33,474 nucleotides of DNA from Chloroflexota bacterium (lineage in GTDB: Bacteria > Chloroflexota > Anaerolineae > CG2-30-64-16): assembly GCA_029555885.1 (NCBI GenBank), contig JAKPQT010000209.1, positions 1-33,474 on the forward strand, written 5' to 3'. The stretch's first letter is position 1. Each line of letters begins with the position of its first letter. The position numbers and the translations under genes were made by a program. The notes under the pieces were generated by a model. The model ran no database searches. It saw nothing but the letters and a program-made list of their open reading frames with translations, and was not told the DNA's origin. Positions 7,525 to 22,374 of the stretch are shown here, one piece after another.

Positions 7525-7854
7525 GTGACACAAGCTAACACACTTTTCAACCGGGTGGTGACGCTGCTCCTGTGGCTGGCGAGCATCGCCCTGCTCATCG
7601 CAGATATCTATTTCGTGCGCGAGCTCTTCTTCGTCATCTATGCGCGGTTCTCGACTGACGCTGCCGTGGCGTTGCTGTGGGGCAACATCATTGTCGTGGT
7701 CGCGGCCATCCTGGCCGTCGGCTTCATCATTGCATCGGGCGAATATCATCGCAAGCACCACGGCAAGCCGCGGTCATGGCGGCTGTTCGCCTGGACGTTC
7801 GGTGTTGGACTGGCGATTCCGGTGCTCGCGCTGCTCCTGGGAGGGTCGGCGTGA
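7525..7854 (+). CDS. Small membrane protein of unknown function, three predicted helices
   Basis: 109 aa. GTG 7525 is preceded by GGAGG (7514-7518) at 6 nt. Three hydrophobic segments are visible: about residues 9-37 (long, starting VVTLLLWLASIALLIADIYF), 46-70 (AALLWGNIIVVVAAILAVGF region) and 87-106 (FAWTFGVGLAIPVLALLLG). A short basic loop (EYHRKHHGKPRSW) lies between the last two. No known domain was recognised. The stop overlaps the start of the alpha-glucosidase gene (GTGA, 7851-7854), so the two are translationally coupled. A role linked to sugar handling is only positional inference. Confidence 0.75.
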   Translation: MTQANTLFNRVVTLLLWLASIALLIADIYFVRELFFVIYARFSTDAAVALLWGNIIVVVAAILAVGFIIASGEYHRKHHGKPRSWRLFAWTFGVGLAIPVLALLLGGSA

Positions 7855-9581
7855 CCGAACTTAAGTGGTGGCAGCAGGCGGTCTTTTACCAGATTTATCC
7901 GCGCAGCTTCGCCGATGGCAATGGCGACGGCATCGGCGACTTTCGCGGCATCACGGCACGACTGGACTACCTGCAAGACCTGGGGATCGACGCCATCTGG
8001 CTTTCGCCCCACTTTCCCTCGCCGCAGGCCGATTGCGGCTATGACATTGCGGACTACACCGATGTCGCGCCGGAATACGGCACGCTCGACGACTTCCGCA
8101 CTTTTCTGACTGAGGCGCACCGCCGCGGCATCCGCGTCATCCTTGACCTCGTGCTCAACCATACATCGGACCAGCACCGCTGGTTCATCGAGTCCCGCAC
8201 CACCCGCGAAAATCCGAAGCGCGATTGGTACATCTGGCGCGATGGTCGGGACGGCGGACCGCCCAACAATTGGGAATCTGCCTTCGGCGGCTCCGCGTGG
8301 GAGTATGACCAGCGCACCGGCCAGTACTACTATCATTACTTCCTGAGGGAGCAGCCTGACCTCAACTGGCGCAACCCGGAGGTCAAGCAGGCCATGTGGG
8401 ATGCCGTGCGGTTCTGGCTGGACATGGGCGTGGATGGCTTCCGGCTGGATGCCATCGGCACCATCTACGAGCGGCCCGATCTGCCCGACCATACTGCGAC
8501 AAAGACCCTGATCGAGCTGACCGCGGCGCGCGAAGTGCCGGCCGGCCCACTCGAGGCCGGAGAGTTCCTGGCCGAATGGCAGGCTCTGATCAAACACCAG
8601 GTGGACCAGCCCGGCGTCCACGAACTGATGCAGGAGTTGCGAGGCATCCTGGACGAGTACGATGGGGATCGGGTCCTGATTGGCGAGAGCGAAGACACGA
8701 GCTATCACGGCGACGGCGATAACGAGCTGCACCTCGTGTTCAACTTCCCGATGATGCGGCCGCGCCGGCTGACGCCCGCGAGCATTCGTGCCAACCAGGC
8801 GGAACGGCTGGCCGAGCTGGCCGCCATCTCGCCCGACCTGTGGCCCTGCAACACGCTCGGCAACCATGACTCACCGCGGGTCAAGAGCCGCTACGGCGAC
8901 GGGGTTCACGACGATGCGCTGGCCCGGCTGCACCTCGTCCTGCTCCTGACGCTGCGGGGCACGCCCTTCCTCTACAACGGGGAAGAAATCGGCATGACGG
9001 ACTACCGCCTCACCGATATCGCACAATTCCGCGACCTGTGGGGCGTGCGGGCCTACTATGCCGTACGCGACGAACTTGGGGCCACCCCCGAAGCTGCGCT
9101 GGCGCGGGCCGCGGAAATCACGCGCGATGCCGTCCGCACCCCGCACCAATGGGAAAACGCGGCCAACGCGGGCTTCAGCCCACCCGGCGTGGAGACATGG
9201 CTGCCCGTCAATCCGAACTATGCGGAGGGCGTCAATGTAGCCGAGCAGCGTGAGAACCCTGATTCGTTGCTCAACTTCTATCGCCGGATGCTGCGAGTGC
9301 GCCGGGAGACACCGGCCCTCATCGCCGGGCGCTACGTGCCCCTGCACGAAGAAGCGCCGGACTACCTGGCATTCCTGCGCCAGCTCGATACGGATTCGGC
9401 GGGCCGCGCGGGCCAGACTTGCCTGGTCGTGTTGAACTTTTCCGACCGGCCGCAGCGTCTGTGCTTCGACCTGGCCGTCACCGCGGTGCGCCCTATCCTG
9501 GCCGCCCGGGCCCAGCCGCTGCGAGACCTGTCCGATTTCATTCTCGAACCGTATGAGGCATTCATCGGCGAACTCGCCTGA
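7851..9581 (+). CDS. GH13 alpha-glucosidase (oligo-1,6-/alpha-1,4-glucosidase type)
   Basis: Hydrolyses non-reducing terminal alpha-glucosyl residues of malto- or isomalto-oligosaccharides; no signal peptide, so cytoplasmic. 576 aa. The frame is open far upstream, but GTG 7851, with GGGAGGG (7840-7846) before it, gives the family-typical start ELKWWQQAVFYQIYPRSF. The GH13 regions are intact: DLVLNHTSDQH, GFRLDAIG with nucleophile Asp200, LIGESED with acid/base Glu279, and LGNHDSPR with Asp340. The segment NNWESAFGGSAWEYD and the phrase QPDLNWRNPEV favour alpha-glucosidase over trehalose synthase. It overlaps the preceding gene by 4 nt. Exact linkage preference cannot be read. Confidence 0.93.
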   Translation: MTELKWWQQAVFYQIYPRSFADGNGDGIGDFRGITARLDYLQDLGIDAIWLSPHFPSPQADCGYDIADYTDVAPEYGTLDDFRTFLTEAHRRGIRVILDLVLNHTSDQHRWFIESRTTRENPKRDWYIWRDGRDGGPPNNWESAFGGSAWEYDQRTGQYYYHYFLREQPDLNWRNPEVKQAMWDAVRFWLDMGVDGFRLDAIGTIYERPDLPDHTATKTLIELTAAREVPAGPLEAGEFLAEWQALIKHQVDQPGVHELMQELRGILDEYDGDRVLIGESEDTSYHGDGDNELHLVFNFPMMRPRRLTPASIRANQAERLAELAAISPDLWPCNTLGNHDSPRVKSRYGDGVHDDALARLHLVLLLTLRGTPFLYNGEEIGMTDYRLTDIAQFRDLWGVRAYYAVRDELGATPEAALARAAEITRDAVRTPHQWENAANAGFSPPGVETWLPVNPNYAEGVNVAEQRENPDSLLNFYRRMLRVRRETPALIAGRYVPLHEEAPDYLAFLRQLDTDSAGRAGQTCLVVLNFSDRPQRLCFDLAVTAVRPILAARAQPLRDLSDFILEPYEAFIGELA

Positions 9582-9597
9582 CCTTAAGGAGGATTCC

Positions 9598-10035
9598 ATG
9601 GCTCAAGCAACAGACACGATCCGATTTCTGCAGCGTGTTCCGCTGTTCCACGGTTTGAACGACCGCCAGCTCCGCAAGCTGGCCGTGCGCTGCGTCGAAC
9701 GCAAATACGCGGCGGGCCAATCCATCGTTGCCCAGGGCCAGGGCGGCGAAGGCTTCTTCGTGATCGTCACAGGTCAGGCGAAGGCCATGCGCCATCGCAG
9801 CGACGGATCAGAAGTCCTGGTCAACACATTCGGCCCGACCGATTTTTTCGGTGAACTGGCGCTGCTGTACGACGGGGCGCGCACCGCCACCGTGATTGCC
9901 ACTGAACCGACCGAATGCCTGGCACTGACGCGCTGGGACTTCATCGGTACCCTCAAAGAAGATGCGGAGATGGCCGTCGTCATTGCCCAGGCCCTGGCGG
10001 AACGTTTCCACCGGGCCCTGGATGCATTGCAGTAA
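9598..10035 (+). CDS. Stand-alone cyclic nucleotide-binding domain protein (CRP/FNR fold, no DNA-binding domain)
   Basis: 145 aa. ATG 9598 follows AAGGAGG (9587-9593 region) at about 5 nt and lies 16 nt behind the glucosidase stop. The whole protein is one cNMP-binding domain: an N-terminal helix (FLQRVPLFHGLNDRQLRKLA), the beta-barrel (GQSIVAQGQGGEGFFVIVTG) and an intact phosphate-binding cassette, FGELALLYDGARTATV. The cassette's Glu and Arg are the residues that hold the cyclic phosphate and ribose in CRP and PKA. There is no helix-turn-helix and no fused effector. It therefore either acts as a regulatory subunit for a partner or as a nucleotide buffer. The next gene encodes a cyclase-domain protein, a suggestive pairing. 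Confidence 0.88.
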   Translation: MAQATDTIRFLQRVPLFHGLNDRQLRKLAVRCVERKYAAGQSIVAQGQGGEGFFVIVTGQAKAMRHRSDGSEVLVNTFGPTDFFGELALLYDGARTATVIATEPTECLALTRWDFIGTLKEDAEMAVVIAQALAERFHRALDALQ

Positions 10036-10139
10036 GTATCCGGCGACTGTTGTAGTGTGATCATTTAGCTCGGTAGTGGCGCCCGAGTTCTTCTTCACGG
10101 TTCTCTCCCACATCGGGCTGGAAGAGGGGAGTCCCAGAA

Positions 10140-10176
10140 TGGAGGTTTTGGGCCGCAAGGCGGCCTAAAACCTCCA
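10140..10176. repeat. Perfect palindrome / strong hairpin between cNMP-binding and cyclase genes
   Basis: Arms 10140-10156 and 10160-10176 pair over all 17 positions (one G-T wobble) around a 3-base AAG loop. The arm starts TGGAGGTTTT. It resembles a REP-type palindromic unit or a bidirectional terminator without a T-run. The rest of 10036-10319 holds no gene and no promoter I trust. A GGGGGAG at 10301-10307 is the nearest ribosome-binding candidate for the cyclase gene. Confidence 0.65.
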
Positions 10177-10319
10177 CACAATAGGATTTCCCCGCCTCTG
10201 CAAGTGGGGGCGGCGCCACGAGTGGGGCGCAGACTACCAAACCATTCTGTCAAGTACATCAACCGATAGTACCTGCGCAGGCCGCGCCATGCGGCACCCA
10301 GGGGGAGACAGTATACCCG

Positions 10320-13300
10320 ATGAAGTGTCCCAACTGTGGCTTCGAGAGCCACGCCGGGATGAGATTCTGCGGGCAATGCGGCGCGCCATTGGGCAGCCCA
10401 TGCCCCAATTGCGCCTTTGTCAATCCCCTCACCTACCGGTTCTGCGGCATGTGCGGCCTCTCCCTGACGGAAGCCTCTGCCGCGGCGAGTGTCGCGCAGT
10501 TACCGCTCCCGCTGGACGCCCCAGCCCCACCGCTCCTGCCTGGCCTGCACGCCGACGAGACGCTGCCCCAGGTTCAACACCCTGGCCCGCCTTCCATGCG
10601 CACGGAAACCCCGACGCCGGGGCTCCCCGCCCCAGGGCTCACTGCCCCACTCGCCGGCGAACGCCGCATCGCGACCATCATCCTGGCCGATGTGTGCAAC
10701 TCCACTGACCTGATGGAGCACCTGGGCACCGAAACCTGGGTAGAGATGATGAACCAGGTGTTGCAACTGCTGGCCGCCGAGGTCTATCGTTTCGGGGGCC
10801 ATGTGGACCAGTTCCGCGGGGATGGGCTGGTTGCGTTCTTCGGCGCGACGCACTCGCATGAGGATGACCCGGAGCGCGCAATCCTCGCGGCACTGGCGAT
10901 GCACGAGGCCCTCCGGCCCTTTGCCGAAGAGATGCTCGCTAAGGACATCAGTCTGAAGGTGCGCGTGGGCGTCAATACCGGCGAGGTCATCGTGGGCAGC
11001 GTGGGGGAGGCCGGCCAGCATCGCGAAGACACGGCGATGGGCGAGGGTGTGGCGCTGGCCGCGCGCATGGAGTCCTCCGCCGAACCGGGCACAGTGCTCG
11101 TCAGCGCACACACCTATCATCTGGTCGAGTCCCGGTTCGAATGGCAGCCGCTGGGCGAGATATCGGTCAAGGGCGTCAGCCGGCCCATCGCGGTCTACCG
11201 GCCGCTGCGCCTCCGCTCGCTGACCGAGGCGCGCCAGGCACGCGACCTGAGCTTACCGCTCGTCGCGGGCCGGGATGCGCCTCTGGAAGCGCTCAGGGGG
11301 TGTGTGACAGCCGTGCAGCAAGGGCGCGGGGGCATCTCGGTGGTGACCGGTGCCAAGGGCATGGGCAAGACCCAGCTCATCAACCACGTCCGGCGGCAGT
11401 TCGAGCAAGCCGCCGAACCGCCCGCCGAGCCTGTCGCACCAGAAAAACCCGGTCCGGCGACTCCACCAATGACCTGGCTGCTCGGTCACTGCCAGTCCTA
11501 TGACCAGTCTACACCCTACTCGCTATGGCTGGGACTGCTCCACAACTGGTTAGAGGCCGCCGACTCGGACGCGACGGCAGCGTCTTCCGACATGGCGGGA
11601 CTGTTGTACCAACAGTCGGAGCTGCTATGGGGCGATGATGTCGAGCGCTACTACCCTTACCTGGCGATGCTGCTGTCGCTGCCCGTCGAAGGCCCCCAGG
11701 CCCGGCGCATCACGTATCTCAAGGCCGAGGGACTGCAGAAGCAGATTTTCAGCACGGTCTACAGTTGGGTGGAAGCCCTGGCGCAGCGCGGCCCGCTGGT
11801 CATGACGCTCACCGACCTGCAGTTCGCGGACACCAGTTCTCTGGAACTGCTCCAGCACTGCCTGCCCATCTGCGAGAGCGCGCCGGTGTTGTGGCTGGCG
11901 AGCTTTCGGCCCGAGCGCACCTCGCCTGTCTGGCAGTTCCGCCATTATGTCGAGACCGAATACCCGCACCGGCTGACCGCGATTGACCTGCCGCCGCTCA
12001 CGCCCAGCGAGACCCGTGCGCTGATCGAGCAAATGCTCGGCCGGGGCACGCTGGCGGATGCCACGACGGCCTTGCTCATCGAAAAAGCTGAGGGTAATCC
12101 CTATTATGCGCGGGAGCTGGTCTACGCGCTGATCGATCAGGGACTCGTGCAGCAGGATGCGGCTGGCGTCTGGCGGCAGATGCAGCCCATCCAGAACGTC
12201 AACCTGCCAGGCAGCCTGCGCGGCCTGCTGCTCACCCGCATCGACCATCTCAGCGTCGAGGAGCGCCACGTGCTCCAGATTGCGGCGGTCATCGGCCCGC
12301 TGTTCTGGCGCAGCGTCCTCGAAGGCCTGATCCGCGACCCCGCGCAACTTAAGCGTGCGCTCACCAATCTCCAGCGCGCGCAGCTCATCCACGAGCAGAA
12401 CGTCGAGCCGGAGCTGGGAATCGCCTATGCGTTCACGCCCTCTCTGGTGCGCGATGTCGTGTACGAAAGCCTCCTGAACGCGCAGCGGACGGCCTACCAC
12501 CTGCAGATAGGCGAGCAAATCGAACAGATCATCAGCCCGGAGAGCATTTCCATTTATCACGGGCTGCTGGCCTATCATTATCATCAGGCCGGCAACTATC
12601 GGCGCGAGCTCTACCATGCGCTCGGCGCAGCGGCTGAGATGCGCCGCGTCTACGCCAACAGCGACGCCCTGGCCCACTACACCCGCGTGCTGGAGTTGTT
12701 GGAGCAAATCGAGGCGCGCGGCGCGGACGAAGATCAGCTCCATTCCATCCGCGAGATGCGTTTCGAGGCGCTCGAAGGCCGCGCCCAGGTCCTGGCGCGC
12801 ATGGGGCACATTGAGGCGGGCCAGGCCGATGCCCGGGCGCTCCTGCCGCTGGCCCGGCTGTTGACCGATGACCCGATATTCATGCTCGACGCCCTCCTGT
12901 CGCAGCCGGAGGTCAGCGACCCCAACACCCCCGAAGAGCTGACGACCGGACTCCAGATGGCGCAGCAGGCGCTCGCGCTCGCGCAGCAGGCCGGCGACAA
13001 ACACCGCGAGATGCATAGCCTGCTCGCCGTCGGCCACCTACAGCAATTGCACCGCGACCCCGCGTGGCACGAGCTGCGGGCCCGCGCGCTCGAACTCTCA
13101 CGGCAGTTGGGCGACCTGCGCACCGAAGTTGGGCTATTGCTGGGCATCGGCGGCGCCTACAGCATGGACAATCTGGAGCGCAACGCCGAGTACGTCCAGG
13201 CGGCCCTCTCCATCTCGCAGCGCCTGGAAGACCGGGAGACCGAGGCCTGGCTGCTGGCCGCGCTCAGCCCGGAACATGAGCGCCGCGGCGACTACTACCG

Positions 13301-14114
13301 CCAGTTGACCGAGTTCGAGCAGAAGCGAGTCCAAATCTATCGCGAGGTCGGGAACCGCCTCGGCGAAGGCCATGCGCTGGTCTTTGCCGGCCAGATCCAG
13401 GCCATCTACTTGGGCGACTACGAGGGTGGGCTGGCCGTCCTCGAAGAGGCGCTCGATCGCTGGAGCGAATCGAGCGACAAGATTTTCGCGCTGTTGCGCA
13501 TCGCCCAGATTCAGGGCGAGCTGGGCCAGTTCGACGCAGCCTGGGCCACGATTGCACAGGCACGCACCGTCACCGAGCGCGTGCTGTTCAGCCTGGGCCA
13601 CGCCGGGCTCCGCTTGGTGGAGGCCATCCTGCACAACGCGCAGGGCGGCCCGGAGCACTGGCAGCAGGCCCTGAACCTCCAGGCGCAGGTCCGGCAGATG
13701 GTGGCCGAGGGGCAGGTCTCGCGGCAGTATCAGATGGTCGCCGCGTGTGAGACCGCCGCCGCACACCTGGGTCTGGCGAGCGTGCCAGATATGGCCGCGC
13801 CGGAGCGGGACGAACACCTGCGCTATGCGCTCGAAGCGTCGGGCAACGCCCTGGACATTTACCGGCAGTTCGGCTTCACACAGATCACCGAATGCACGGG
13901 CGAAGAAATCATGTACCGGCACAGCCTCGCGCTGGCCGCGAACGGCCGGCACGAGGAGGCGCAGGACATGCTCAAAAGCGCGTACCGGGAAATGATGCGC
14001 AAGCACGGCATGATCCCGGCAGACAGCCCGTTCCGCCGCACGTTCCTGGAAAACATCAAGCTGCACCGCCAGATTCGCGCAGCCTATGAGGCTGCGTTCC
14101 GCAACCAGCCCTGA
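10320..14114 (+). CDS. Zinc-ribbon / class III nucleotidyl cyclase / AAA-type ATPase / TPR signalling protein
   Basis: 1264 aa, cytoplasmic. Order: two zinc ribbons in residues 1-47 (CPNC, CGQC, CPNC, CGMC), a Pro-rich linker (about 60-112), a class III cyclase homology domain (about 114-296), a P-loop ATPase (Walker A GAKGMGKT at 344-351, Walker B VMTLTDLQFAD), then a long helical TPR-like half with an STAND-type layout. In the cyclase domain both metal-binding Asp (D124 in ILADVCNSTD, D168 in RGDG) and the transition-state Arg (R249 in AARM) are present. The catalytic Asn four residues before that Arg is Ala245, and the purine-selecting Lys position is Gln164. Activity is therefore uncertain. 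Such giant proteins are common in Chloroflexota. A weakly spaced GGGGGAG precedes ATG 10320. Confidence 0.9.
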   Translation: MKCPNCGFESHAGMRFCGQCGAPLGSPCPNCAFVNPLTYRFCGMCGLSLTEASAAASVAQLPLPLDAPAPPLLPGLHADETLPQVQHPGPPSMRTETPTPGLPAPGLTAPLAGERRIATIILADVCNSTDLMEHLGTETWVEMMNQVLQLLAAEVYRFGGHVDQFRGDGLVAFFGATHSHEDDPERAILAALAMHEALRPFAEEMLAKDISLKVRVGVNTGEVIVGSVGEAGQHREDTAMGEGVALAARMESSAEPGTVLVSAHTYHLVESRFEWQPLGEISVKGVSRPIAVYRPLRLRSLTEARQARDLSLPLVAGRDAPLEALRGCVTAVQQGRGGISVVTGAKGMGKTQLINHVRRQFEQAAEPPAEPVAPEKPGPATPPMTWLLGHCQSYDQSTPYSLWLGLLHNWLEAADSDATAASSDMAGLLYQQSELLWGDDVERYYPYLAMLLSLPVEGPQARRITYLKAEGLQKQIFSTVYSWVEALAQRGPLVMTLTDLQFADTSSLELLQHCLPICESAPVLWLASFRPERTSPVWQFRHYVETEYPHRLTAIDLPPLTPSETRALIEQMLGRGTLADATTALLIEKAEGNPYYARELVYALIDQGLVQQDAAGVWRQMQPIQNVNLPGSLRGLLLTRIDHLSVEERHVLQIAAVIGPLFWRSVLEGLIRDPAQLKRALTNLQRAQLIHEQNVEPELGIAYAFTPSLVRDVVYESLLNAQRTAYHLQIGEQIEQIISPESISIYHGLLAYHYHQAGNYRRELYHALGAAAEMRRVYANSDALAHYTRVLELLEQIEARGADEDQLHSIREMRFEALEGRAQVLARMGHIEAGQADARALLPLARLLTDDPIFMLDALLSQPEVSDPNTPEELTTGLQMAQQALALAQQAGDKHREMHSLLAVGHLQQLHRDPAWHELRARALELSRQLGDLRTEVGLLLGIGGAYSMDNLERNAEYVQAALSISQRLEDRETEAWLLAALSPEHERRGDYYRQLTEFEQKRVQIYREVGNRLGEGHALVFAGQIQAIYLGDYEGGLAVLEEALDRWSESSDKIFALLRIAQIQGELGQFDAAWATIAQARTVTERVLFSLGHAGLRLVEAILHNAQGGPEHWQQALNLQAQVRQMVAEGQVSRQYQMVAACETAAAHLGLASVPDMAAPERDEHLRYALEASGNALDIYRQFGFTQITECTGEEIMYRHSLALAANGRHEEAQDMLKSAYREMMRKHGMIPADSPFRRTFLENIKLHRQIRAAYEAAFRNQP

Positions 14115-14182
14115 GCAGGCGCTGCCCGACAGGCCGCGCTTACTATGAGGCTGGCATCACCATAACAGACCTGAGGAGAGAC

Positions 14183-16621
14183 ATGCCCCAAATCACAATT
14201 CCCACCGAATTTCCCTCGCGCGCCGAACCCGCTGCCGTGGTCACCGGCGAGCACGTCCGCTTCACCGTACTGACCTCGCGCATGATTCGGATGGAGTACA
14301 GCCAGCACAACCGTTTCGAAGACCGCGCCAGCCAGGCGTTCTGGTATCGCCAGCAGCCCGTGCCGGACTTCCAGCTCACCCAGACGCCGGACCAGATCGA
14401 CATCGAGACGGAGCACCTGCATCTGTGCTACAAAATCTCCGATGCGGGCTTTACCATGAACACGCTGTCGATCGAATTGAAGGGCAGCGGCGTCACCTGG
14501 CGCTTCGGCGACCGCGACCACCACAACCTGCGCGGCACCGCGCGGACACTGGACGGCGCCAACGGCGAGATCGACCTGGAACCAGGGCTGATGTCGCGCG
14601 CCGGCTGGTCGCTGGTGGACGACTCGCAGAGCCTCGTGTTCAACCAATCCGGCTGGCTGGAACAGCGCCCGCCCGCCCGCACCGCAGAATATCGCGACCT
14701 CTACTTCCTCGGATACGGCCAGGACTACATCGGCTGCCTGCAGGAATACACGCGCGTCTCCGGCCGCGTGCCGCTGGTGCCCCGCTACGCGCTGGGCAAC
14801 TGGTGGAGCCGCTACTGGGACTACAAGCAGGACGAACTGCGCGACCTGATGGTCGAGTTCCGCGAGCGCGAGGTGCCGCTGTCCGTGTGCATCATCGACA
14901 TGGACTGGCACATCACCAAGACCGGCAACGCGTCATCGGGCTGGACCGGGTACACCTGGAACCATGAGCAGTGGCCCGATCCCTACGGCTTCATCGCCTG
15001 GCTGCACGAGCAGGGCCTGCGCACCGCCATGAACCTGCACCCGGCGGACGGCATCTGGCCGCACGAAGCGCAGTACGAGGAGATGGCCCGCTTCATGGGC
15101 CAAGACCCCGCGACCCAGGAGCCGGTTCCGTTCGACCTGGCCGACCCGCACTTCGTCGAAGGGTACTTCAAGATTCTGCACCATCCGATGGAAGCCGAGG
15201 GCGTGGACTTCTGGTGGCTGGACTGGCAGCAGGGGCAGCGCATGGTGCACTCCACGCAGCCGGTTGCAGAGGTCATGGACCCCTTGTGGTGGCTCAATCA
15301 CCTGCACTTCTATGACCTGGGCCGCGACGGCACGAAGCGCCCGTTCATCTTCTCGCGCTGGGGCGGCCTGGGCAACCAGCGGTACCCCATCGGGTTCTCC
15401 GGCGATAGCTGGGTGACGTGGGCCACGCTGGCATTCCAGCCCTACTTCACCGCGACGGCTTCCAATGTCGCGTTCGGCTGGTGGAGCCATGACATCGGCG
15501 GCCATTGCGCGGGCGTCGAAGAGCCGGAGTTGTACGCGCGCTGGGTGCAGCTCGGCGCGTTCAGCCCCATCCTGCGGCTGCACAGCACCAACAATCCGTT
15601 CCACGACCGCCGGCCCTGGGGCAACGGCGCAGACGCGTTCCGCGTCGCGCGCGCGGCCATGCAGTTGCGCCATGCGCTGATTCCGTATATTTACAGCATG
15701 GCCTGGCGCATGACGCAGCAGAGCATCCCGCTGGTGACGCCGCTCTACTACTGGCACGGCAGCCGCGAGGAAGCTTACCTGTGCCGGAACCAATTCTACT
15801 TCGGCAGTGAGCTGATGGTTGCGCCGTACGTCTCTCCGCGCCACCCCGAAACCAATCTCAGCCGCCACACCGTGTGGCTGCCGACGGGCGATTGGTTCGA
15901 CTTCACGACGGGCGAGCACTTCGCGGGCGACCAGACGGTCTCGCTCTACGGCACGCTGGATGACATCCCCGTGTTCGCGCGCGCGGGCAGCATCGTGCCC
16001 CTGGGCCCGCGCGTTGGTTGGGGCGGCGTGGACAACCCGGAGGAACTGACGGTCTATGTCTTCCCTGGTGCCGACGACCGGTTCACCCTGTACGAGGACG
16101 ACGGCAACTCGACCGGCTATCTCCAGGGTGACTATGCTCTGACCGAGCTATCGCAGAGATGGGGCGGCAGCGAACTCAGCTTCACGGTCGCAAAGGCCGC
16201 GGGCAACCCGGCCCATATCCCGGCGAATCGCCGGTACAGCGTCGTCCTGCGGGGGGTGCGCAACCCGGACGCAGTACGGCTGACCGTCAACGGCGCGGTG
16301 CAGGAAGTGCAGGGGCAGTACGACGCGGCCACCGAATCGCTGACCCTGCCGTTCGTGCCCTGCGGCCCGGCGGACGAGCTCACGCTGACCGTCAGCGGGA
16401 CGGAAGGTACGTTGCTGTCGAAGCGCGACCGCCGCGTGGAGACCTGCCGCGCGATGCTGTGGGCCTTCAAGCTCGACTCGCTGGCCAAGATGGCGCTGGA
16501 CCGGGCACTGCCGCAGCTGGCAGAGAACCCGGACAGCCTGGGGCAATACGGCGGTGAGATCGACCGCGTCAGCGAGGCGCAGTTGATGGCGCTGCGCAAT
16601 GTGCTGGAACGCCGGCAATAG
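14183..16621 (+). CDS. GH31 family glycosidase (alpha-glucosidase/alpha-xylosidase type) with C-terminal DUF5110-like domain
   Basis: 812 aa, no signal peptide. ATG 14183 is preceded by GAGGAGAG (14173-14180). N-terminal beta-sandwich (residues 1 to about 190, with YFLGYGQDYIGCL), then the TIM barrel starting PLVPRYALGNWWSRYWDY. The nucleophile is Asp347 in GVDFWWLDWQQG, a WLDWQ variant of the usual W-x-D-M-N-E. The acid/base is Asp408 in IGFSGDSWVTW. C-terminal beta domains include TVYVFPGADDRFTLYEDDG, the DUF5110 signature, which often binds calcium. An extra tail of about 70 residues after it (from KRDRRVETCRAM) is helical and unrecognised. The neighbouring maltokinase and GlgE suggest alpha-glucan substrates, but the WLDWQ form means specificity should not be assumed. 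Confidence 0.9.
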   Translation: MPQITIPTEFPSRAEPAAVVTGEHVRFTVLTSRMIRMEYSQHNRFEDRASQAFWYRQQPVPDFQLTQTPDQIDIETEHLHLCYKISDAGFTMNTLSIELKGSGVTWRFGDRDHHNLRGTARTLDGANGEIDLEPGLMSRAGWSLVDDSQSLVFNQSGWLEQRPPARTAEYRDLYFLGYGQDYIGCLQEYTRVSGRVPLVPRYALGNWWSRYWDYKQDELRDLMVEFREREVPLSVCIIDMDWHITKTGNASSGWTGYTWNHEQWPDPYGFIAWLHEQGLRTAMNLHPADGIWPHEAQYEEMARFMGQDPATQEPVPFDLADPHFVEGYFKILHHPMEAEGVDFWWLDWQQGQRMVHSTQPVAEVMDPLWWLNHLHFYDLGRDGTKRPFIFSRWGGLGNQRYPIGFSGDSWVTWATLAFQPYFTATASNVAFGWWSHDIGGHCAGVEEPELYARWVQLGAFSPILRLHSTNNPFHDRRPWGNGADAFRVARAAMQLRHALIPYIYSMAWRMTQQSIPLVTPLYYWHGSREEAYLCRNQFYFGSELMVAPYVSPRHPETNLSRHTVWLPTGDWFDFTTGEHFAGDQTVSLYGTLDDIPVFARAGSIVPLGPRVGWGGVDNPEELTVYVFPGADDRFTLYEDDGNSTGYLQGDYALTELSQRWGGSELSFTVAKAAGNPAHIPANRRYSVVLRGVRNPDAVRLTVNGAVQEVQGQYDAATESLTLPFVPCGPADELTLTVSGTEGTLLSKRDRRVETCRAMLWAFKLDSLAKMALDRALPQLAENPDSLGQYGGEIDRVSEAQLMALRNVLERRQ

Positions 16622-16655
16622 GCGTCGCATAGGGCCTCGCGCCCGTCGGGACGCC
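16621..16655 (+). terminator. Weak hairpin after the GH31 gene
   Basis: GGCGTC (16621-16626) pairs with GACGCC (16650-16655), enclosing GGGC/GCCC (16632-16635 with 16641-16644) across an internal loop. No T-run follows. It may only moderate read-through into the maltokinase gene. Confidence 0.3.
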
Positions 16656-16696
16656 CACAAGGGGCTGTACTACCCTCCTGAAAAGGAGACTGGCTG

Positions 16697-18370
16697 ATGT
16701 CGCATTCTGCACACGACGCCGCTGACCTGTCCGCCGTTGCTGCACTGCGGACGGCCGGGCCGTGGGAATCGGTGTTCCATGGCCCGGCCCGCGAGGCGCT
16801 GGAGGCAGTGCTGCCCGGCTATGTCGCGCCGCGGCGCTGGTTCGGCGCGAAGGCGCGCACGATCCGCGCGATCCGGATACAGGAGGCCGTCCCGATTCTG
16901 CCGGCCGCGGTGCTCGCCCTGCTGCGGGTGGAGTACGCCGAGGGCGCACCGGACCGGTACGCGCTGCCTATCGGCTTCCTGTCCGGCGCGGCCGGTCAAG
17001 CCCTGCAAGGGGAGCGGCCCGCAGCCGTGATCGCCAGCCTGCAAGCAGGAGGCGAAACGGGCGTGCTGCACGACGCCGTCTGGGACCCGGCCTTCTGCGC
17101 CGCGCTGCTCGCAGCCATCGACGAGCAGCGGCAGTATGCGGGGATCAGCGGCGACGTGGTCGCCACGGCATCCAGCGCGTTCCCGCGGCTGCGCGGCGCG
17201 GGCACCGCTTCGCTCCCGCCCGTACTGCTGGGCGTGGAGCAGAGCAACACCTCGATCCGGTACGGCGAACGCTTCATCCTGAAGCTGTACCGGCGGCTCG
17301 AAGCGGGCGCCAACCCGGACCAGGAGATCGGCCTGTTCCTTACGGAGCAGGCCGCATTCGCCAACGTGCCGGCGGTGGCCGGGGTGCTCGAATACCGCCC
17401 CCACCCGCCTGCGACCGGTGAGCCGGTGACGCTCGCGCTCCTGCAGGAGTTCGTGACCAACCGGGGCGACGCGTGGCACTACACGCTCGATGCCCTGGCC
17501 GGCTACTATCGGACCGCCCAGCACCCGCTCGGCCCCAGAAGTTTCGACCTGGCGCTGCCCCAGACGCCGCTCCTCGAACTGGTCCGAGACCCGCTCCCTA
17601 CACAGGCAGAACAGCTCATCGGCCCATACCTTGATTCGGCGCGACTGCTCGGCCGGCGCACCGGAGAACTGCACCTGGCGCTGGCGTCCGATCCGGACCA
17701 ACCGGCCTTCGCACCGGAGCCGTTCACGCCCGAGTTCCAGGCCTACCTGCAGCGCAGCATGCGCGAGCTGGTGGATCACAACATGCAGCTCTTGCGGTCA
17801 CGTCTCACGGACCTGCCGGCGTCCGGCAAGGATGACGCACGGGCGGTGCTGGCGCGGGAAGCCGAGATTGCCGGGCGGTTCGATGCCCTGCTGGCGCGAC
17901 CCATCCGCGCGCTGCGCACGCGCATCCACGGCGACTACCACCTCGGCCAGGTGCTCTACACGGGCGACGACTTCATGATCATCGACTTCGAAGGGGAGCC
18001 GGCACGCCCCCTGAGCGAACGCCGGATGAAGCGCTCACCCCTGCAGGACGTGGCCGGGATGCTGCGGTCGTTCCACTATGCAGCCTACGCGGCCTACTTC
18101 GCGCAGGGGCAGGACGGCCAGCCCGCGCCGGAACTGGAAGCGTGGGCGCCCTTCTGGCACCTCTGGGTGTCCGTGGCGTATCTTCAGAGCTATCTGGCCG
18201 TAGCGGATGGCGCGGCTTTCATGCCAGATGAGCCGGAAGACCTCAGACTATTGTTGGATGTCTATCTTGTCGAAAAGGCAGTCTATGAGCTAGGCTATGA
18301 GTTGAACAACCGGCCCGGCTGGGTGCAGATTCCGCTGCAGGGCATCTTGCAGACGGTGCGGGCCGGCTGA
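16697..18370 (+). CDS. mak: Maltokinase
   Basis: Phosphorylates maltose with ATP to maltose 1-phosphate, the donor for GlgE; cytoplasmic. 557 aa. ATG 16697 has AAGGAG (16683-16688) 8 nt upstream. The N-terminal cap shows the family mark PRRWFGAKARTI (about residues 48-59). The aminoglycoside-phosphotransferase-like kinase fold follows, with FILKLYRRLEAGANPDQEIG (ATP-site lysine). The catalytic loop is IHGDYHLGQV (His411, Asp413), and the metal-binding IIDFEGEP has Asp430. RRMKRSPLQDVAGMLRSF after it is highly characteristic of maltokinases. It ends 20 nt before GlgE, as in the Mak-GlgE pairs of actinobacteria and others. No fusion to trehalose synthase is present. Confidence 0.93.
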   Translation: MSHSAHDAADLSAVAALRTAGPWESVFHGPAREALEAVLPGYVAPRRWFGAKARTIRAIRIQEAVPILPAAVLALLRVEYAEGAPDRYALPIGFLSGAAGQALQGERPAAVIASLQAGGETGVLHDAVWDPAFCAALLAAIDEQRQYAGISGDVVATASSAFPRLRGAGTASLPPVLLGVEQSNTSIRYGERFILKLYRRLEAGANPDQEIGLFLTEQAAFANVPAVAGVLEYRPHPPATGEPVTLALLQEFVTNRGDAWHYTLDALAGYYRTAQHPLGPRSFDLALPQTPLLELVRDPLPTQAEQLIGPYLDSARLLGRRTGELHLALASDPDQPAFAPEPFTPEFQAYLQRSMRELVDHNMQLLRSRLTDLPASGKDDARAVLAREAEIAGRFDALLARPIRALRTRIHGDYHLGQVLYTGDDFMIIDFEGEPARPLSERRMKRSPLQDVAGMLRSFHYAAYAAYFAQGQDGQPAPELEAWAPFWHLWVSVAYLQSYLAVADGAAFMPDEPEDLRLLLDVYLVEKAVYELGYELNNRPGWVQIPLQGILQTVRAG

Positions 18371-18390
18371 CCTGGATGAAGGAGGAAGCA

Positions 18391-20376
18391 GTGCTACCGG
18401 AGGAAGGCAGAAATCGCGTCATCATCGAAAGCGTGACCCCCGCAATCGACGGGGGCCGGTTTCCGATCAAACGGATTGTGGGCGACGAAACGACGGTCGA
18501 AGCGATCGCGCTGACCGACGGCCACGATGCGCTCTCGTGTGCGGTGATCTACCGGAAGGAGGGTGCAGCGGAGTGGACCGAGGTCCCGATGACGTTCCTC
18601 ATCAACGACCGCTGGCAGGCCACGTTCACCGTGCAGGAACTCGGCGTGTACAAGTATACGGTGCAGGGCTGGGTGGACCACTTCAAGACCTGGGTGCGCG
18701 ACTTCGCCAAGCGCGTGCAGGCCGGGCAAGACGTCACCGTGGACCTGCAGATCGGCGCGCAACTCGTCGAGGCCGCTGCCGCGCAGGCAACCGGCACTAT
18801 CAAGGACGCGCTGGCGACCTATGCCCAGGCGCTCGCGGCAGGCGGGGAAGAGGGCACGCGCCAGGCGTTATCGGACGAGCTGGCGCAACTGATGGCACGG
18901 CACGGCGTGCGGCAGTTCATCACGACCTATCGGCAGGAGCTGACCATCGTCGTCGATCGCGAACGCGCGCGGTTCGGCGCGTGGTACGAGCTCTTCCCGC
19001 GCTCGACCGCACCGGTGCCCGGCCAGCACGGGACATTCCGGGACGTGGAGGCGCGGCTGCCCTACGTGGCATCGATGGGCTTCGACGTGCTCTACCTACC
19101 GCCCATCCACCCCATCGGCACGGCCTTCCGTAAGGGCCGCAACAACACCACCACCCCGGCCCCGGATGACCCCGGGAGCCCGTGGGCCATCGGCTCCGCC
19201 GAGGGCGGGCACAAGAGCATCCACCCGCAACTGGGCACACTGGATGATTTCCGCCACCTCGTATCCGCGGCCGCGGCCCACGGCCTCGAAATCGCGATGG
19301 ACATTGCCTTCCAGTGCTCGCCGGATCACCCTTATGTCAAAGAGCACCCTCAATGGTTCCGGCAGCGCCCCGACGGCACGATCCAGTACGCCGAGAACCC
19401 GCCCAAGAAATACCAGGACATCTATCCCTTCGATTTCGAGACCGAAGACTGGCGCGCGCTGTGGATGGAACTGAAGAGCATCTTCGAGTTCTGGATTGCC
19501 CAGGGGGTGCGCATCTTCCGGGTGGATAACCCGCACACCAAGCCCTTCGCCTTCTGGGAATGGCTCATCACCGAGGTCAAGCGTGACGCGCCGGATGCCA
19601 TCTTCCTGGCCGAGGCGTTCACGCGGCCCGCGGCCCTCTACGGGCTGGCGAAGCGCGGGTTCACCCAGTCGTACAATTACTTCCCCTGGCGCAACACCAA
19701 GTGGGAGCTGACGCAGTATCTCACCGAGCTGACCCAGACCGAGGTGAAGGACTTCTGCGGCCCGAATTTCTGGCCCAATACGCCGGACATCCTGACCGAG
19801 TATCTCCAGTATGGCGGGCGGGCTGCGCACATCACGCGGCTCGTGCTCGCGGCCACGCTGGGACCGAGTTACGGCATCTACGGCGCGGCCTTCGAGCTCT
19901 GTGAAAACCGCCCCCTCGCTCCGGGCCGCGAGGAATACCTTGATTCGGAGAAGTACGAGATCAAGGCGTGGGACATCCACCGACCGGACAGCTTGCGTGG
20001 GCTGATCGGCCGCGTGAATCAGATCCGCCACGAGAACCCGGCGTTCCATGCCAACCGCAACCTGCGCTTCCACGACATCGACAACGACCAGCTCATCGCG
20101 TTCACCAAGAGCAACGAAGATCGCACGAACGAGGTCCTCGTCGTCGTGAATCTCGACCCGCGCTACCGGCAGTCGGGTTTCATCCACCTCCCGCTGGAGG
20201 ACCTGGGGCTGGACCACCATCAGCCTTTCCAGGTACACGACCTGCTGACGGATGCCCGCTACATCTGGCACGGCCCACACAACTACATCGAGCTCGACCC
20301 GCGCCACCTGCCCGCGCACATCTTCGTCATCCGGCGCAGGGTGCGCACAGAGCACGACTTCGACTATTACCTGTGA
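18391..20376 (+). CDS. glgE: Alpha-1,4-glucan:maltose-1-phosphate maltosyltransferase
   Basis: Transfers maltosyl units from maltose 1-phosphate to the non-reducing end of alpha-1,4-glucan (GH13_3). The first ATG in frame is 18376, but the only Shine-Dalgarno (AAGGAGG, 18379-18385) lies inside that reading. It sits 5 nt before GTG 18391, which I take as the start (661 aa). The N-terminal beta domain (VIIESVTPAIDGGRFPIKR, GWVDHFKTWVRDF) is followed by ARFGAWYELFPRS and the catalytic barrel. Nucleophile Asp379 lies in FRVDNPHTKP and acid/base Glu408 in FLAEAFTRP, 29 residues apart as in characterised GlgE. The LGPSYGIYGAAFELCEN segment is typical. It is co-operonic with maltokinase and is the last gene before the tRNA region. 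Confidence 0.95.
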   Translation: MLPEEGRNRVIIESVTPAIDGGRFPIKRIVGDETTVEAIALTDGHDALSCAVIYRKEGAAEWTEVPMTFLINDRWQATFTVQELGVYKYTVQGWVDHFKTWVRDFAKRVQAGQDVTVDLQIGAQLVEAAAAQATGTIKDALATYAQALAAGGEEGTRQALSDELAQLMARHGVRQFITTYRQELTIVVDRERARFGAWYELFPRSTAPVPGQHGTFRDVEARLPYVASMGFDVLYLPPIHPIGTAFRKGRNNTTTPAPDDPGSPWAIGSAEGGHKSIHPQLGTLDDFRHLVSAAAAHGLEIAMDIAFQCSPDHPYVKEHPQWFRQRPDGTIQYAENPPKKYQDIYPFDFETEDWRALWMELKSIFEFWIAQGVRIFRVDNPHTKPFAFWEWLITEVKRDAPDAIFLAEAFTRPAALYGLAKRGFTQSYNYFPWRNTKWELTQYLTELTQTEVKDFCGPNFWPNTPDILTEYLQYGGRAAHITRLVLAATLGPSYGIYGAAFELCENRPLAPGREEYLDSEKYEIKAWDIHRPDSLRGLIGRVNQIRHENPAFHANRNLRFHDIDNDQLIAFTKSNEDRTNEVLVVVNLDPRYRQSGFIHLPLEDLGLDHHQPFQVHDLLTDARYIWHGPHNYIELDPRHLPAHIFVIRRRVRTEHDFDYYL

Positions 20377-20412: not shown

Positions 20413-20484
20413 TGGAGTCGAGGCTTCAACCGGTCTGGGCGTGCGAGTGCGTAGCTGACCTAACCGGCTGAAGCCGCGACTCCA
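20413..20484. repeat. Imperfect inverted repeat downstream of glgE
   Basis: Arms 20413-20434 and 20463-20484 match at 20 of 22 positions (arm begins TGGAGTCGAGGCTTCAACCG), with a 28-nt spacer. It lies 36 nt behind the glgE stop and could end that transcript, but no T-run follows. It abuts a 27-nt direct repeat and looks like one unit of a dispersed intergenic element. Confidence 0.7.
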
Positions 20485-20565
20485 ATTGCGTTCGGGGTTC
20501 CCGGACGGCCGGCCATTCGGCTATCCCGAGAACGACCTCGACTCCAATTGCGTTCGGGGTTCCCG
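20477..20565. repeat. 27-nt direct repeat, two copies 62 nt apart
   Basis: The same 27 bases, starting CGACTCCAATTGCG, occur at 20477-20503 and 20539-20565. Between them are GTTC/GAAC-bounded imperfect palindromic sequences (about 20498-20534). The first copy overlaps the right arm of the inverted repeat at 20463-20484. The second copy ends 7 nt upstream of the tRNA promoter. Confidence 0.75.
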
Positions 20566-20572
20566 AATAAGC

Positions 20573-20601
20573 TTGCCAAAGAACGCGTATGCTGGTATAC
20601 T
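20573..20601 (+). promoter_or_regulatory. Promoter of the tRNA gene
   Basis: TTGCCA (20573-20578) and TATACT (20596-20601) with exactly 17 nt between them. Initiation near 20608 would place the mature tRNA 5' end (20615) about 7 nt into the transcript. Confidence 0.75.
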
Positions 20602-20614
20602 GGCAGGCGTCTGA

Positions 20615-21041
20615 GGGCCCCTAGCTCAGCGGTTAGAGCGGCCGGCTCGTGGCGGTCCCGGTGGCGGATGACAGCAATGTCCTCCGTCGCACATCGTCAA
20701 GGGCTGCCCGGCGGGAGACTGCCGGGTGATACCTGCCAAACTCGGGGAAGCCTACGTCATGAAGACATGGTGATCCCGAGCCAAGCCCCGAACTCGTTCG
20801 TGGGGAAGGTGTAGAGACTAGACGGCGGGCACCCGACGGGGACGGCTGCGCAGATCGCATGGCGACCGGCAACCCGATCCTCAGGGTGAAGGGATAGTCC
20901 AGCCCACAAACCCGTCTCCGGGTGCGTCCAGGTCGACAGGCATCAGGCCTGAGAGCCTGGGCGGGCGGAGGTCGCGGGGCGGCGAAAGCCGCAGTGGGAA
21001 GCATAACCGGTTGGTCCTGGGTTCGAATCCCGGGGGGCCCA
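20615..21041 (+). tRNA. tRNA-Ile(CAU) type, interrupted by a group I intron (exons 20615-20647 and 21002-21041)
   Basis: Joining the exons gives a 73-nt cloverleaf without encoded CCA. The acceptor stem GGGCCCC/GGGGCCC is a perfect 7 bp. The D arm is GCTC-AGCGGTTA-GAGC, the anticodon stem GCCGG/CCGGT, the loop CTCATAA (anticodon CAT), the variable loop TGGTC and the T arm CTGGG-TTCGAAT-CCCGG. The D arm, loop and TGGTC variable loop match bacterial tRNA-Ile2, whose C34 is modified to lysidine so that it reads AUA. C4-G69 and C5-G68, as in E. coli tRNA-Ile2, also favour Ile over elongator Met, which remains the alternative. Discriminator A is at 21041. Confidence 0.88.
20648..21001 (+). ncRNA. 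Self-splicing group I intron (IC3-like, tRNA-Ile type), 354 nt, no ORF
   Basis: Boundaries follow the group I rule: the 5' exon ends in T (20647, tRNA position 33) and the intron ends in G (21001). P1 is GGCT/GGTC (20644-20647 with 20654-20657) with the T-G wobble at the splice site. P2 is 20663-20688 with a GCAA tetraloop. P3 is 20724-20728 plus 20732-20737 with 20824-20834. P4 is CTCGGG/CCCGAG (20741-20746 with 20775-20780), followed by CCAAGC. P7 is GACTA/TAGTC (20816-20820 with 20895-20899). P9 is CCCAC/GTGGG (20903-20907 with 20994-20998), enclosing GCGGC-GAAA-GCCGC (20979-20992). The core phrases GTGTAGAGACTAGACGG and GGTGAAGG-ATAGTCCAG are those of the Azoarcus tRNA-Ile and Anabaena tRNA-Leu introns. 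No homing endonuclease is encoded. Confidence 0.93.
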
Positions 21042-21046
21042 TTCAC

Positions 21047-21081
21047 GAAGCGAAGCTGCATCTGCACTTCGCTTCCTTTTT
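21047..21081 (+). terminator. Intrinsic terminator of the tRNA gene
   Basis: GAAGCGAAG (21047-21055) pairs perfectly with CTTCGCTTC (21067-21075), with a small TGC/GCA inner stem, and is followed by CTTTTT. It begins 6 nt after the tRNA 3' end. Together with the promoter at 20573-20601 it makes the tRNA an independent transcription unit. Confidence 0.88.
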
Positions 21082-21099
21082 GTTGAGGAGTTGCGTTCG

Positions 21100-22374
21100 T
21101 TGAGCAAAAGCAAAGTCGCGATCCTGCGCACATCCCCGCGCACGGTCCTGGCCGATTACCATCGCCTGCTGAACCTGGCAGGCTACCAGGATGTCCTGGC
21201 GAAGGATGCGGACACCGCGCTGAAGGTCAACATCTCGTGGCACTTCTTCTATCCCGGCAGTTCCACGACGCCGTGGCAGCTCGAAGGCGTCATCCGCGCG
21301 CTCAAGGCCGACGGCTATGCCCCAAACCTCATCCACGCGTGCCACAACCGCACGGTCGTCATCGACGCGCACCTGGGCGAGCGCGAGAACAAGCAGGTCA
21401 ACGTCGTGGAGGCCCACGGGCTGCGCAACGTGCACCTGTACGAGGGCGAGGAGTGGCTGCCCATCGGGGATGCGGTGGGCGACCTGACGAAAAAGTTCCT
21501 CGTGCTCAACGATGTCTATCCCGACGGGTTCATGATTCCTCGCCGGTTCATCGGCGAGAACATCATCCACCTGCCGACGGTCAAGACGCACATCTTCACG
21601 ACGACGACTGGCGCGATGAAGAACGCTTTCGGCGGGCTGCTCAACGAGCGGCGCCACTGGACGCACCCGGTCATTCACGAAACGCTGGTGGACCTGCTGA
21701 TGATCCAGAAGCGCATCCACCGGGGCGTGTTTGCGGTCATGGACGGCACGTTCGCAGGCGACGGACCCGGGCCGCGCTGCATGATTCCCTACGCCAAGAG
21801 CGTCATCCTGGCGTCGAGCGACCAGGTCGCGATCGACGCGCTGGCCGCCAAGCTGATGGGGTTCGACCCGCTGTCCATCAAGTACATCCGCCTGGCGCAT
21901 GACCTGGGCCTGGGCTGCGGCGACCCGCGGGAGATCGAGCTGGTGGGCGACGTGGACGCAGCCGCGGAGAACTGGCATTTCACCGGCCCGTTCGAGAAGA
22001 TGACGTTCGCGTCGCGGATGCAGCACAAGATTTACTGGGGCCCGCTGAAGAAGCCGATCGAGTGGTCGCTCAAGACCGTGCTTGCGCCATGGAGCTACCT
22101 GGCCTCGGTCGCGTACCACGACACCATCTGGTATCCCTTCATCGGCGCGAAGCGCGTGCGTGCTGCGCTGAGCAGCGACTGGGGGCGGCTCTTCCGCAAC
22201 TGGGAGACGCTGACGCCGGACGAGCAGGGCTTCCCGTCCGTCGGGGATAAGGTGTTGGAGTTGCAGCGGACAGGGGCTTCTGCGTTCCTGCGGTCGTTCG
22301 GCGTCCTGGGCATGGCCGTCAAGGAAGCGCCGGAGTTTGCCGCCAGCCGTCGCCGCAGAGCTGCAAGCCGATAG
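21100..22374 (+). CDS. DUF362 domain protein
   Basis: 424 aa, cytoplasmic, function unknown. A TTG at 21091 is in frame but touches GAGGAG (21085-21090). TTG 21100, 9 nt from that site, is the better start (SKSKVAILRTSP). The DUF362 character is seen in the start KVAILRTSP, in KVNISWHFFYPGSSTTPWQLEGVI (residues about 42-65), in the block IHLPTVKTHIFTTTTGAMKN, and in AVMDGTFAGDGPGPR near residue 215. The typical ASSDQVAIDALAAKLMGFDP follows. The family is often fused to ferredoxin-like Cys motifs, but none is present here. A helical C-terminal third (from FEKMTFASRM) is extra. It follows the tRNA terminator directly and faces the NamZ gene tail to tail. Confidence 0.85.
   Translation: MSKSKVAILRTSPRTVLADYHRLLNLAGYQDVLAKDADTALKVNISWHFFYPGSSTTPWQLEGVIRALKADGYAPNLIHACHNRTVVIDAHLGERENKQVNVVEAHGLRNVHLYEGEEWLPIGDAVGDLTKKFLVLNDVYPDGFMIPRRFIGENIIHLPTVKTHIFTTTTGAMKNAFGGLLNERRHWTHPVIHETLVDLLMIQKRIHRGVFAVMDGTFAGDGPGPRCMIPYAKSVILASSDQVAIDALAAKLMGFDPLSIKYIRLAHDLGLGCGDPREIELVGDVDAAAENWHFTGPFEKMTFASRMQHKIYWGPLKKPIEWSLKTVLAPWSYLASVAYHDTIWYPFIGAKRVRAALSSDWGRLFRNWETLTPDEQGFPSVGDKVLELQRTGASAFLRSFGVLGMAVKEAPEFAASRRRRAASR

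Follow-up and report, generated by a model that had tools for sequence, protein, structure and literature searches.

Default scans of a stretch of DNA can report neither a tRNA gene nor a group I intron in a place that holds both, one inside the other, which raises the questions of what kind of tRNA it is, at which bond it is split, and to what family the insert belongs. Such a locus lies in the window, that is, the whole 33,474-nt stretch of DNA that was analysed. We conclude that it is very probably a tRNA-Ile2(CAU) gene split by a group I intron at U33|C34, which would be spliced by the standard two-step reaction to restore the tRNA, and which belongs to a mobile lineage.

A tRNA-Ile2 gene split before its anticodon

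The two exons (33 and 40 nt, Table 1) join to a clean 73-nt cloverleaf with anticodon CAT when submitted to ARAGORN, as the initial annotation had proposed, and the coordinates, lengths and U|...G junction that it gave are correct as read from the sequence. At its default settings, ARAGORN calls no tRNA anywhere in the window, and its intron modes recover the outer bounds (20615-21041) with the anticodon misread as CGT or GTG. Rfam at gathering thresholds likewise reports nothing in the window. The group I model RF00028 does match at 20685-20917 (E 9.5e-10 for 551 bases searched, model positions 1-253), but its 43.2 bits fall short of the gathering score of 50, which is why intron and tRNA are missed by default scans; a relative at the same site (L090) scores 77.6.

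The joined molecule is labelled tRNA-Met by ARAGORN, which takes the label from the anticodon, and the locus might accordingly be read as an elongator tRNA-Met(CAU) gene. The body of the tRNA argues otherwise, since it is identical to E. coli ileX at 59 of 73 positions, against 51 for both metT and metU and 49 for metZ. The elongator reading is therefore very unlikely, and from its CAU anticodon and Ile2-type body we assign the spliced tRNA to the Ile2 type, in line with the tRNA-Ile(CAU) identity first given to it. tRNA-Ile2 reads AUA, and TilS converts its C34 to lysidine. The TilS family (TIGR02432) scored above its curated cut-off in all 15 genomes searched, relatives and others, five of them Chloroflexota; at a looser E-value it also matched all 14 control genomes, exceeding the cut-off in 10.

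The sigma-70-like promoter ends 13 bases 5' of the tRNA and is the sole one in 751 bases (shuffle mean 0.0). Downstream lies a terminator-like hairpin, and a scan for consensus terminators around the tRNA found none. Just 5' of the promoter there is a direct repeat of 30 bases (20474-20503 and 20536-20565), 97% identical and 62 bases apart from start to start.

Table 1. Features predicted at the split tRNA locus (positions in the window)
Feature	Position	Strand	Remarks
Sigma-70-like promoter TTGCCA-17-TATACT	20573..20601	+	10/12 match; TG before second hexamer
tRNA-Ile2(CAU) 5' exon	20615..20647	+	tRNA positions 1-33, last base U33
Group I intron, 354 nt	20648..21001	+	First base C, last base G
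GCAA-capped hairpin	20663..20688	+	Inside 53-nt P1 loop; endonuclease frame occupies that loop in longer relatives
Internal guide sequence GGGCUG (P1 3' strand)	20701..20706	+	First four letters invariant in 27 introns
P2, 8 bp, GAGA tetraloop	20707..20726	+	Two-sided changes in 8/8 pairs
P3 5' strand	20732..20737	+	Partner 20824-20829
P4 5' strand	20741..20746	+	Partner 20775-20780
P5 5' strand, two scored pairs	20751..20752	+	Partner 20769-20770; both invariant, uninformative
P6 and P6a	20781..20809	+	P6 20781-20782/20808-20809, invariant; P6a 20786-20789/20802-20805
P7 5' strand	20816..20820	+	Partner 20895-20899; 100% paired; two-sided changes in 2/5 pairs
P3 3' strand	20824..20829	+	Partner 20732-20737
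P8	20831..20887	+	20831-20834/20884-20887; long loop, also in L178 and L083
P7 3' strand	20895..20899	+	Partner 20816-20820
P9 domain	20903..20998	+	P9.0 20903-20907/20994-20998; extended P9.1 20911-20913/20976-20978; GAAA-capped P9.2 20979-20992
Terminal G of intron	21001..21001	+	From ARAGORN exon joining
tRNA-Ile2(CAU) 3' exon	21002..21041	+	C34 to discriminator A; CCA not encoded
Terminator-like hairpin and short U run	21047..21085	+	-17.5 kcal/mol, z -4.13

The insert compared with 26 introns at the same site

What decides that the insert is a group I intron is its comparison with 26 others that share its insertion site, of which 17 lie in Ile2-like and nine in fMet-like tRNAs (sorted by eye from their exons), in an alignment that starts at the guide sequence and takes in the first seven 3' exon bases. 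A 50-pair structure was drawn by hand on the window sequence, which favours it in the count of cells paired: standard pairs fill 98.4% of 1348 cells (shuffle mean 86.0%) and all 50 scored positions of the window copy. Two-sided changes occur in 26 pairs (182 cells, against 50.6 in shuffles), not one of 500 shuffles reaches any of five measures, and sliding the partners by 1-3 columns lowers pairing to 30-47%. At least two pairs with two-sided changes are seen in each of P2, P6a, P7, P8 and the three P9 helices (the names P9.0, P9.1 and P9.2 being assigned in the present analysis), and one each in P3 and P4; P5 and P6 are invariant across the 27 introns and carry no covariation information. The comparison thus brings out a predicted P3-P8 core with the P3/P7 pseudoknot, by which group I introns are recognised, together with two further marks of the group, a 5' exon U opposite a guide G and a G at the end of the intron. 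P7 is the guanosine-binding helix of group I introns.

Most of what had been claimed for the fold holds in this comparison, including the group I assignment itself, the pairing of P4 and P7 (both in the 50-pair structure) and the GAAA-capped 3' hairpin. The hairpin with a GCAA loop that had been named P2 exists, but it sits in the P1 loop, 5' of the guide, and P2 is the GAGA-capped hairpin that follows. P3 does pair, but the bulge ascribed to it is dispensable, as six contiguous pairs can be drawn.

The splice register

Intron and 3' exon both start with C, so that a junction one base later, after C34, would yield an identical joined sequence and a register other than 33/34. This placement is extremely improbable, since exon and intron would then each have C as their last base, in breach of the U|...G rule, and since the first intron base is T in many relatives, whose tRNA would be altered by the shift. 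It is also contradicted by the pairing of exon and guide, which sets U33 opposite G in 14 of the 16 same-site introns examined in detail. Across all 27 aligned introns the exon ends in GGCU and the guide starts with GGGC, and position 31 faces the guide as G31-C in seven of the 16, as A31-U in six and as G31-U in one (L303). This co-change between exon and intron places U33 opposite G and the cut after U33. The A31-U form is present in the Acidobacteria-titled phylum discussed below and in virus contigs, with the guide one base off the model start in one case (L283); in two virus contigs (L281, L286), exon and guide fail to pair at the position given by the model. Taken together, the U|...G rule and exon-guide pairing indicate that the register is U33|C34, the insertion point after U33 that had been read at the outset.

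Relatives, empty sites and the likely host

Group I introns are common in the class Anaerolineae, in which RF00028 matches (E <=1e-3) were found in 79 of 396 genomes, or about one in five, 51 of them above the gathering score; here as in all searches of more than 40 genomes, stricter filters make the counts lower bounds. A split tRNA could be made out at 65 of the 119 matches in the class (50 genomes), with junctions placed by the U|...G rule, so that their agreement with it is not independent. They comprise CAU after 33 (26), UAA after 34 (11), GUU after 35 (eight), CAU after 36 (four), GUA after 35 (four), UCU after 34 (four) and eight others, three with two possible junctions; the anticodons also include CUU and UAC. 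Among the 65, one (L122) was mis-anchored by ARAGORN and two (L159, L166) are doubtful. The 54 matches without a resolved split tRNA were inspected in part, and one of them (L084) has a flank that presumably belongs to 23S rRNA, judging by a motif as we remember it. Introns of the window type reside in Ile2-like tRNAs in 17 genomes of the class, and at the same site in fMet-like tRNAs in nine.

Beyond the class (groups of sampled genomes are named by the NCBI titles of their centre genomes), 33 of 301 genomes of the wider phylum match, and 10 of 24 loci inspected there gave junction candidates: seven fMet-like after 33, one Ile2-like after 33 (L227) and two others. At four other Chloroflexota matches (L226, L236, L244, L248), no tRNA was resolved and the flanks look protein-coding by eye. 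In the Acidobacteria-titled phylum of L002, model R1 matches 15 of 247 genomes, and the 20 loci inspected include splits after U33 in two Ile2-like genes, from two genomes, and in two fMet-like genes. No CAU junction was resolved in the R1-matching genomes of a phylum with a Phycisphaerales-titled centre (G398; 8 of 246) or of a Polyangium-titled one (G405; 5 of 235). Blastn against phage and plasmid collections returned only short core matches, two records in each.

A counterpart of the locus is found in G103, a genome of the sampled class, which has a GlgE protein 92.5% identical over 348 residues encoded directly 5' of a tRNA-Ile2 with the same intron, 84% nucleotide identity over 501 bases around the tRNA, and the same gene order. 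Because of this GlgE synteny and shared intron, the host is most likely a member of the Chloroflexota, class Anaerolineae. As for the surroundings, alpha-amylase, GH31, maltokinase-cap and GlgE genes (Pfam) lie near one another at 7677-20376 of the window and likely form a GlgE-type alpha-glucan pathway. A DUF362 protein is encoded at 21091-22374; its best 80 loci, at 73-91% identity, are titled Chloroflexi, Acidobacteria, Planctomycetes, Myxococcales and others, a spread over many phyla that makes this protein unsuited to placing the host.

Among 10 genomes from the order that includes G103, the tRNA is split in four (G103, G142, G001, G201), intact in three (G043, G189, G174), present as a 3' exon only in one (G076) and not found at E 1e-4 in two (G159, G123). 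In G076 the intron core and the 3' exon of tRNA-Ile2 are found at L092 ~562-845, most of the 5' exon being gone, which makes this either a broken copy or an assembly fault. An intron-less copy, 97% identical, is present in G010. Such sporadic presence with empty sites in relatives, in the order of G103 as well as in G010, is what a mobile intron leaves behind.

Could the window copy nonetheless be a real intron that has decayed, leaving a dead gene while another tRNA decodes AUA? It has no endonuclease frame; its long P8 and P9.1 inserts are shared, among the 27 aligned introns, only with L178 and L083; G076 illustrates that broken copies or assembly faults occur; and a tRNA-Ile(TAT), a 77% match, is found in G008. 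We nevertheless consider decay highly improbable, because the window copy keeps all its scored pairs standard, the promoter and the terminator-like hairpin are in place, and none of the 17 intron-bearing relatives (drafts) has a full match to the spliced tRNA. This last test is of limited reach, since diverged tRNA copies can escape it: the five other genomes searched include, besides G010 and G008, three with no detected intron (G003, G005, G009), which have no full-length match either. Partial matches at the 15 loci checked are, outside G010 and G008, mostly tRNA-Asn, plus Val, Lys and Arg.

Two registers in one tRNA

An intron in the same tRNA at another register, as had been suspected for a Chloroflexota host, is seen within this one class. 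Four loci (L113, L115, L128, L160) have their intron after U36 in genes with 54-60 positions identical to ileX against 51-53 to metT, narrowly so in L160 (54 against 52). Comparison of insertion sites therefore indicates that Ile2-like genes of the class carry introns either at 33/34 (17 genomes) or at 36/37 (these four loci), and that 33/34 is not unique to Ile2, since fMet-like tRNAs of the class use it too.

On a tree of the introns, from which three second hits were dropped beforehand and whose bootstrap has not settled, the 36/37 set (the four loci and L122) forms a single clade with support 100/97, distinct from the U33 introns. Introns with one site label tend to group together (17 label changes against a shuffled mean of 61.8, with none of 200 shuffles as low), and AU tests of five groupings by site, with L274 left out, rejected none (p 0.10-0.23).

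Virus contigs and predicted endonucleases in the P1 loop

An 18-base junction pattern matched 26 stretches of IMG/VR, on which the viral nature of these contigs rests. In 16 of them an R1 match ends at the pattern (one is cut at a contig edge), and 10 are without an intron match. The intron mode of ARAGORN spans the junction in 14 stretches, with the 5' splice site misplaced in eight, and the U33 junction was read directly in seven (L281, L283, L286, L287, L288, L291, L303). Scores sort the virus introns into eight kinds, of which two recur in several copies. Two of ten stretches scanned for tRNAs hold eight and 10 intact tRNA genes, and the 1.8 kb at L303:5438-7214 has three R1 matches, one of them read as a split tRNA, surrounded by ten intact tRNA genes. 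Among 20 proteins encoded nearby on three of the contigs, some match RNA ligase, DNA methyltransferase or HNH proteins, and none is a structural virus protein.

Ten introns at the site were examined for the content of their long P1 loop, and in nine of these the loop holds homologous antisense frames, mutually 46-81% identical, from six Chloroflexota loci (L082, L090, L118, L119, L124, L227), two Acidobacteria-titled ones (L257, L258) and the virus contig L303, in which the tRNA type is not settled; the long P1 loop of L281 has no homologous antisense frame. PHROGs places the L082 protein among the HNH endonucleases (E 1.8e-22). A Pfam search with the antisense protein turned up no HNH family, and a PDB search gave no match. 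Among the 455 relatives that came back from a protein search, the 120 listed are mostly ~124 aa and unnamed.

A second kind of frame is found in fMet-like tRNAs, where five introns of 637-653 nt after U33 (L139, L142, L147, L150, L157) carry a frame of 150-166 residues on the sense strand. The sole protein of the five tested, that of L147, matches Pfam PDDEXK_5 and PDB 2OST (E 3.2e-55), and by these matches is of the I-Ssp6803I type, which to our knowledge was hitherto known from cyanobacteria.

The window copy encodes no endonuclease of its own, such as homing would call for, and its P1 loop is too small for an HNH or PD-(D/E)XK frame. A minus-strand open reading frame over the tRNA gene (20633-21133) matches no Pfam family and was set aside.

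Comparison with known introns

The Azoarcus pre-tRNA-Ile(CAU) intron is small and without an ORF, is inserted after U36, and has a GNRA-capped P2 and a GAAA-capped 3' hairpin. The window intron resembles it in the kind of host tRNA, in being small and ORF-less, and in both capped hairpins, but it is inserted after U33, and the after-U36 introns of its class form a clade of their own. Crystal structures of the Azoarcus pre-tRNA-Ile are mentioned in the accessible part of PMC3984707.

According to the available portion of PMC3073962, the tRNA-fMet intron of Synechocystis PCC 6803 encodes I-Ssp6803I, a PD-(D/E)XK endonuclease, in P1. It shares with the window intron a CAU anticodon loop as insertion target, and with the fMet intron of L147 the type of enzyme; it differs in that the window host is Ile2-like and that same-site relatives of the window intron encode the antisense HNH-type protein. 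The tRNA-Ile2 genes of Acidovorax and Burkholderia also contain group I introns, which, in the text accessible of PMC8450103, were found by hand after a gene finder had missed the gene; the tRNA and the miss are the same, but the bacteria are others. Group I introns in the T-loop of tmRNA include, in the accessible sections of PMC11915505, a subsite confined to Anaerolineae with one exception; they share with the present intron the bacterial class, a structural-RNA host and the -1 U rule, but not the site, which here is the anticodon loop. A table in a 2014 review lists, in its accessible part, bacterial group I tRNA introns from cyanobacteria and from alpha- and beta-proteobacteria (PMC4033280). 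In a literature search to which most subscription papers were out of reach, we found no report of an intron at U33|C34 in tRNA-Ile2. The splicing reaction would hold nothing unusual. The apparent novelties are the tRNA-Ile2 site, the hosts, the presence of two registers in a single class and the HNH-type companion on the antisense strand.

Mechanism and outlook

In the mechanism that we propose, the intron would fold (P2-P9) after transcription and its guide GGGCUG would pair with the exon end to form P1, with U33 opposite G; a guanosine bound in P7 would bring about the cut after U33, and ligation of U33 to C34 at the terminal G would follow. The CAU anticodon loop would be available to TilS, for lysidine formation and AUA decoding, in the spliced tRNA only. 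The intron would be a member of a mobile, site-locked lineage whose longer relatives have an antisense HNH-type frame in the P1 loop, and it may have lost an endonuclease or never had one.

A broader reading, which we offer tentatively and would not yet defend as the probable one, is that a mobile element specialised for tRNA-Ile2(CAU) is common to at least two bacterial phyla and to large tRNA-rich viruses. In this reading, (i) the intron would be locked to U33|C34, (ii) the antisense frames of the P1 loop would be an unnamed family of HNH homing endonucleases that cut the anticodon arm of intron-less Ile2 genes, (iii) the ribozyme would have set the site and taken up two endonucleases, since the fMet intron has core and guide in common with it but an unrelated enzyme, of the PD-(D/E)XK kind, and (iv) AUA decoding would have been made dependent on splicing by a split just before the base that TilS modifies.

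One class of Chloroflexota thus proves rich in group I tRNA introns, inserted after U33, U34, U35 or U36 in many tRNAs, which amounts to a natural experiment on what ties a ribozyme to its insertion site, on the origin of two registers in a single tRNA and on the exchange of endonucleases between introns with the same core. That default scans miss the tRNA that would decode AUA in the window also means that such introns can distort tRNA-based estimates of completeness and what is deduced about codon reading in uncultured bacteria.
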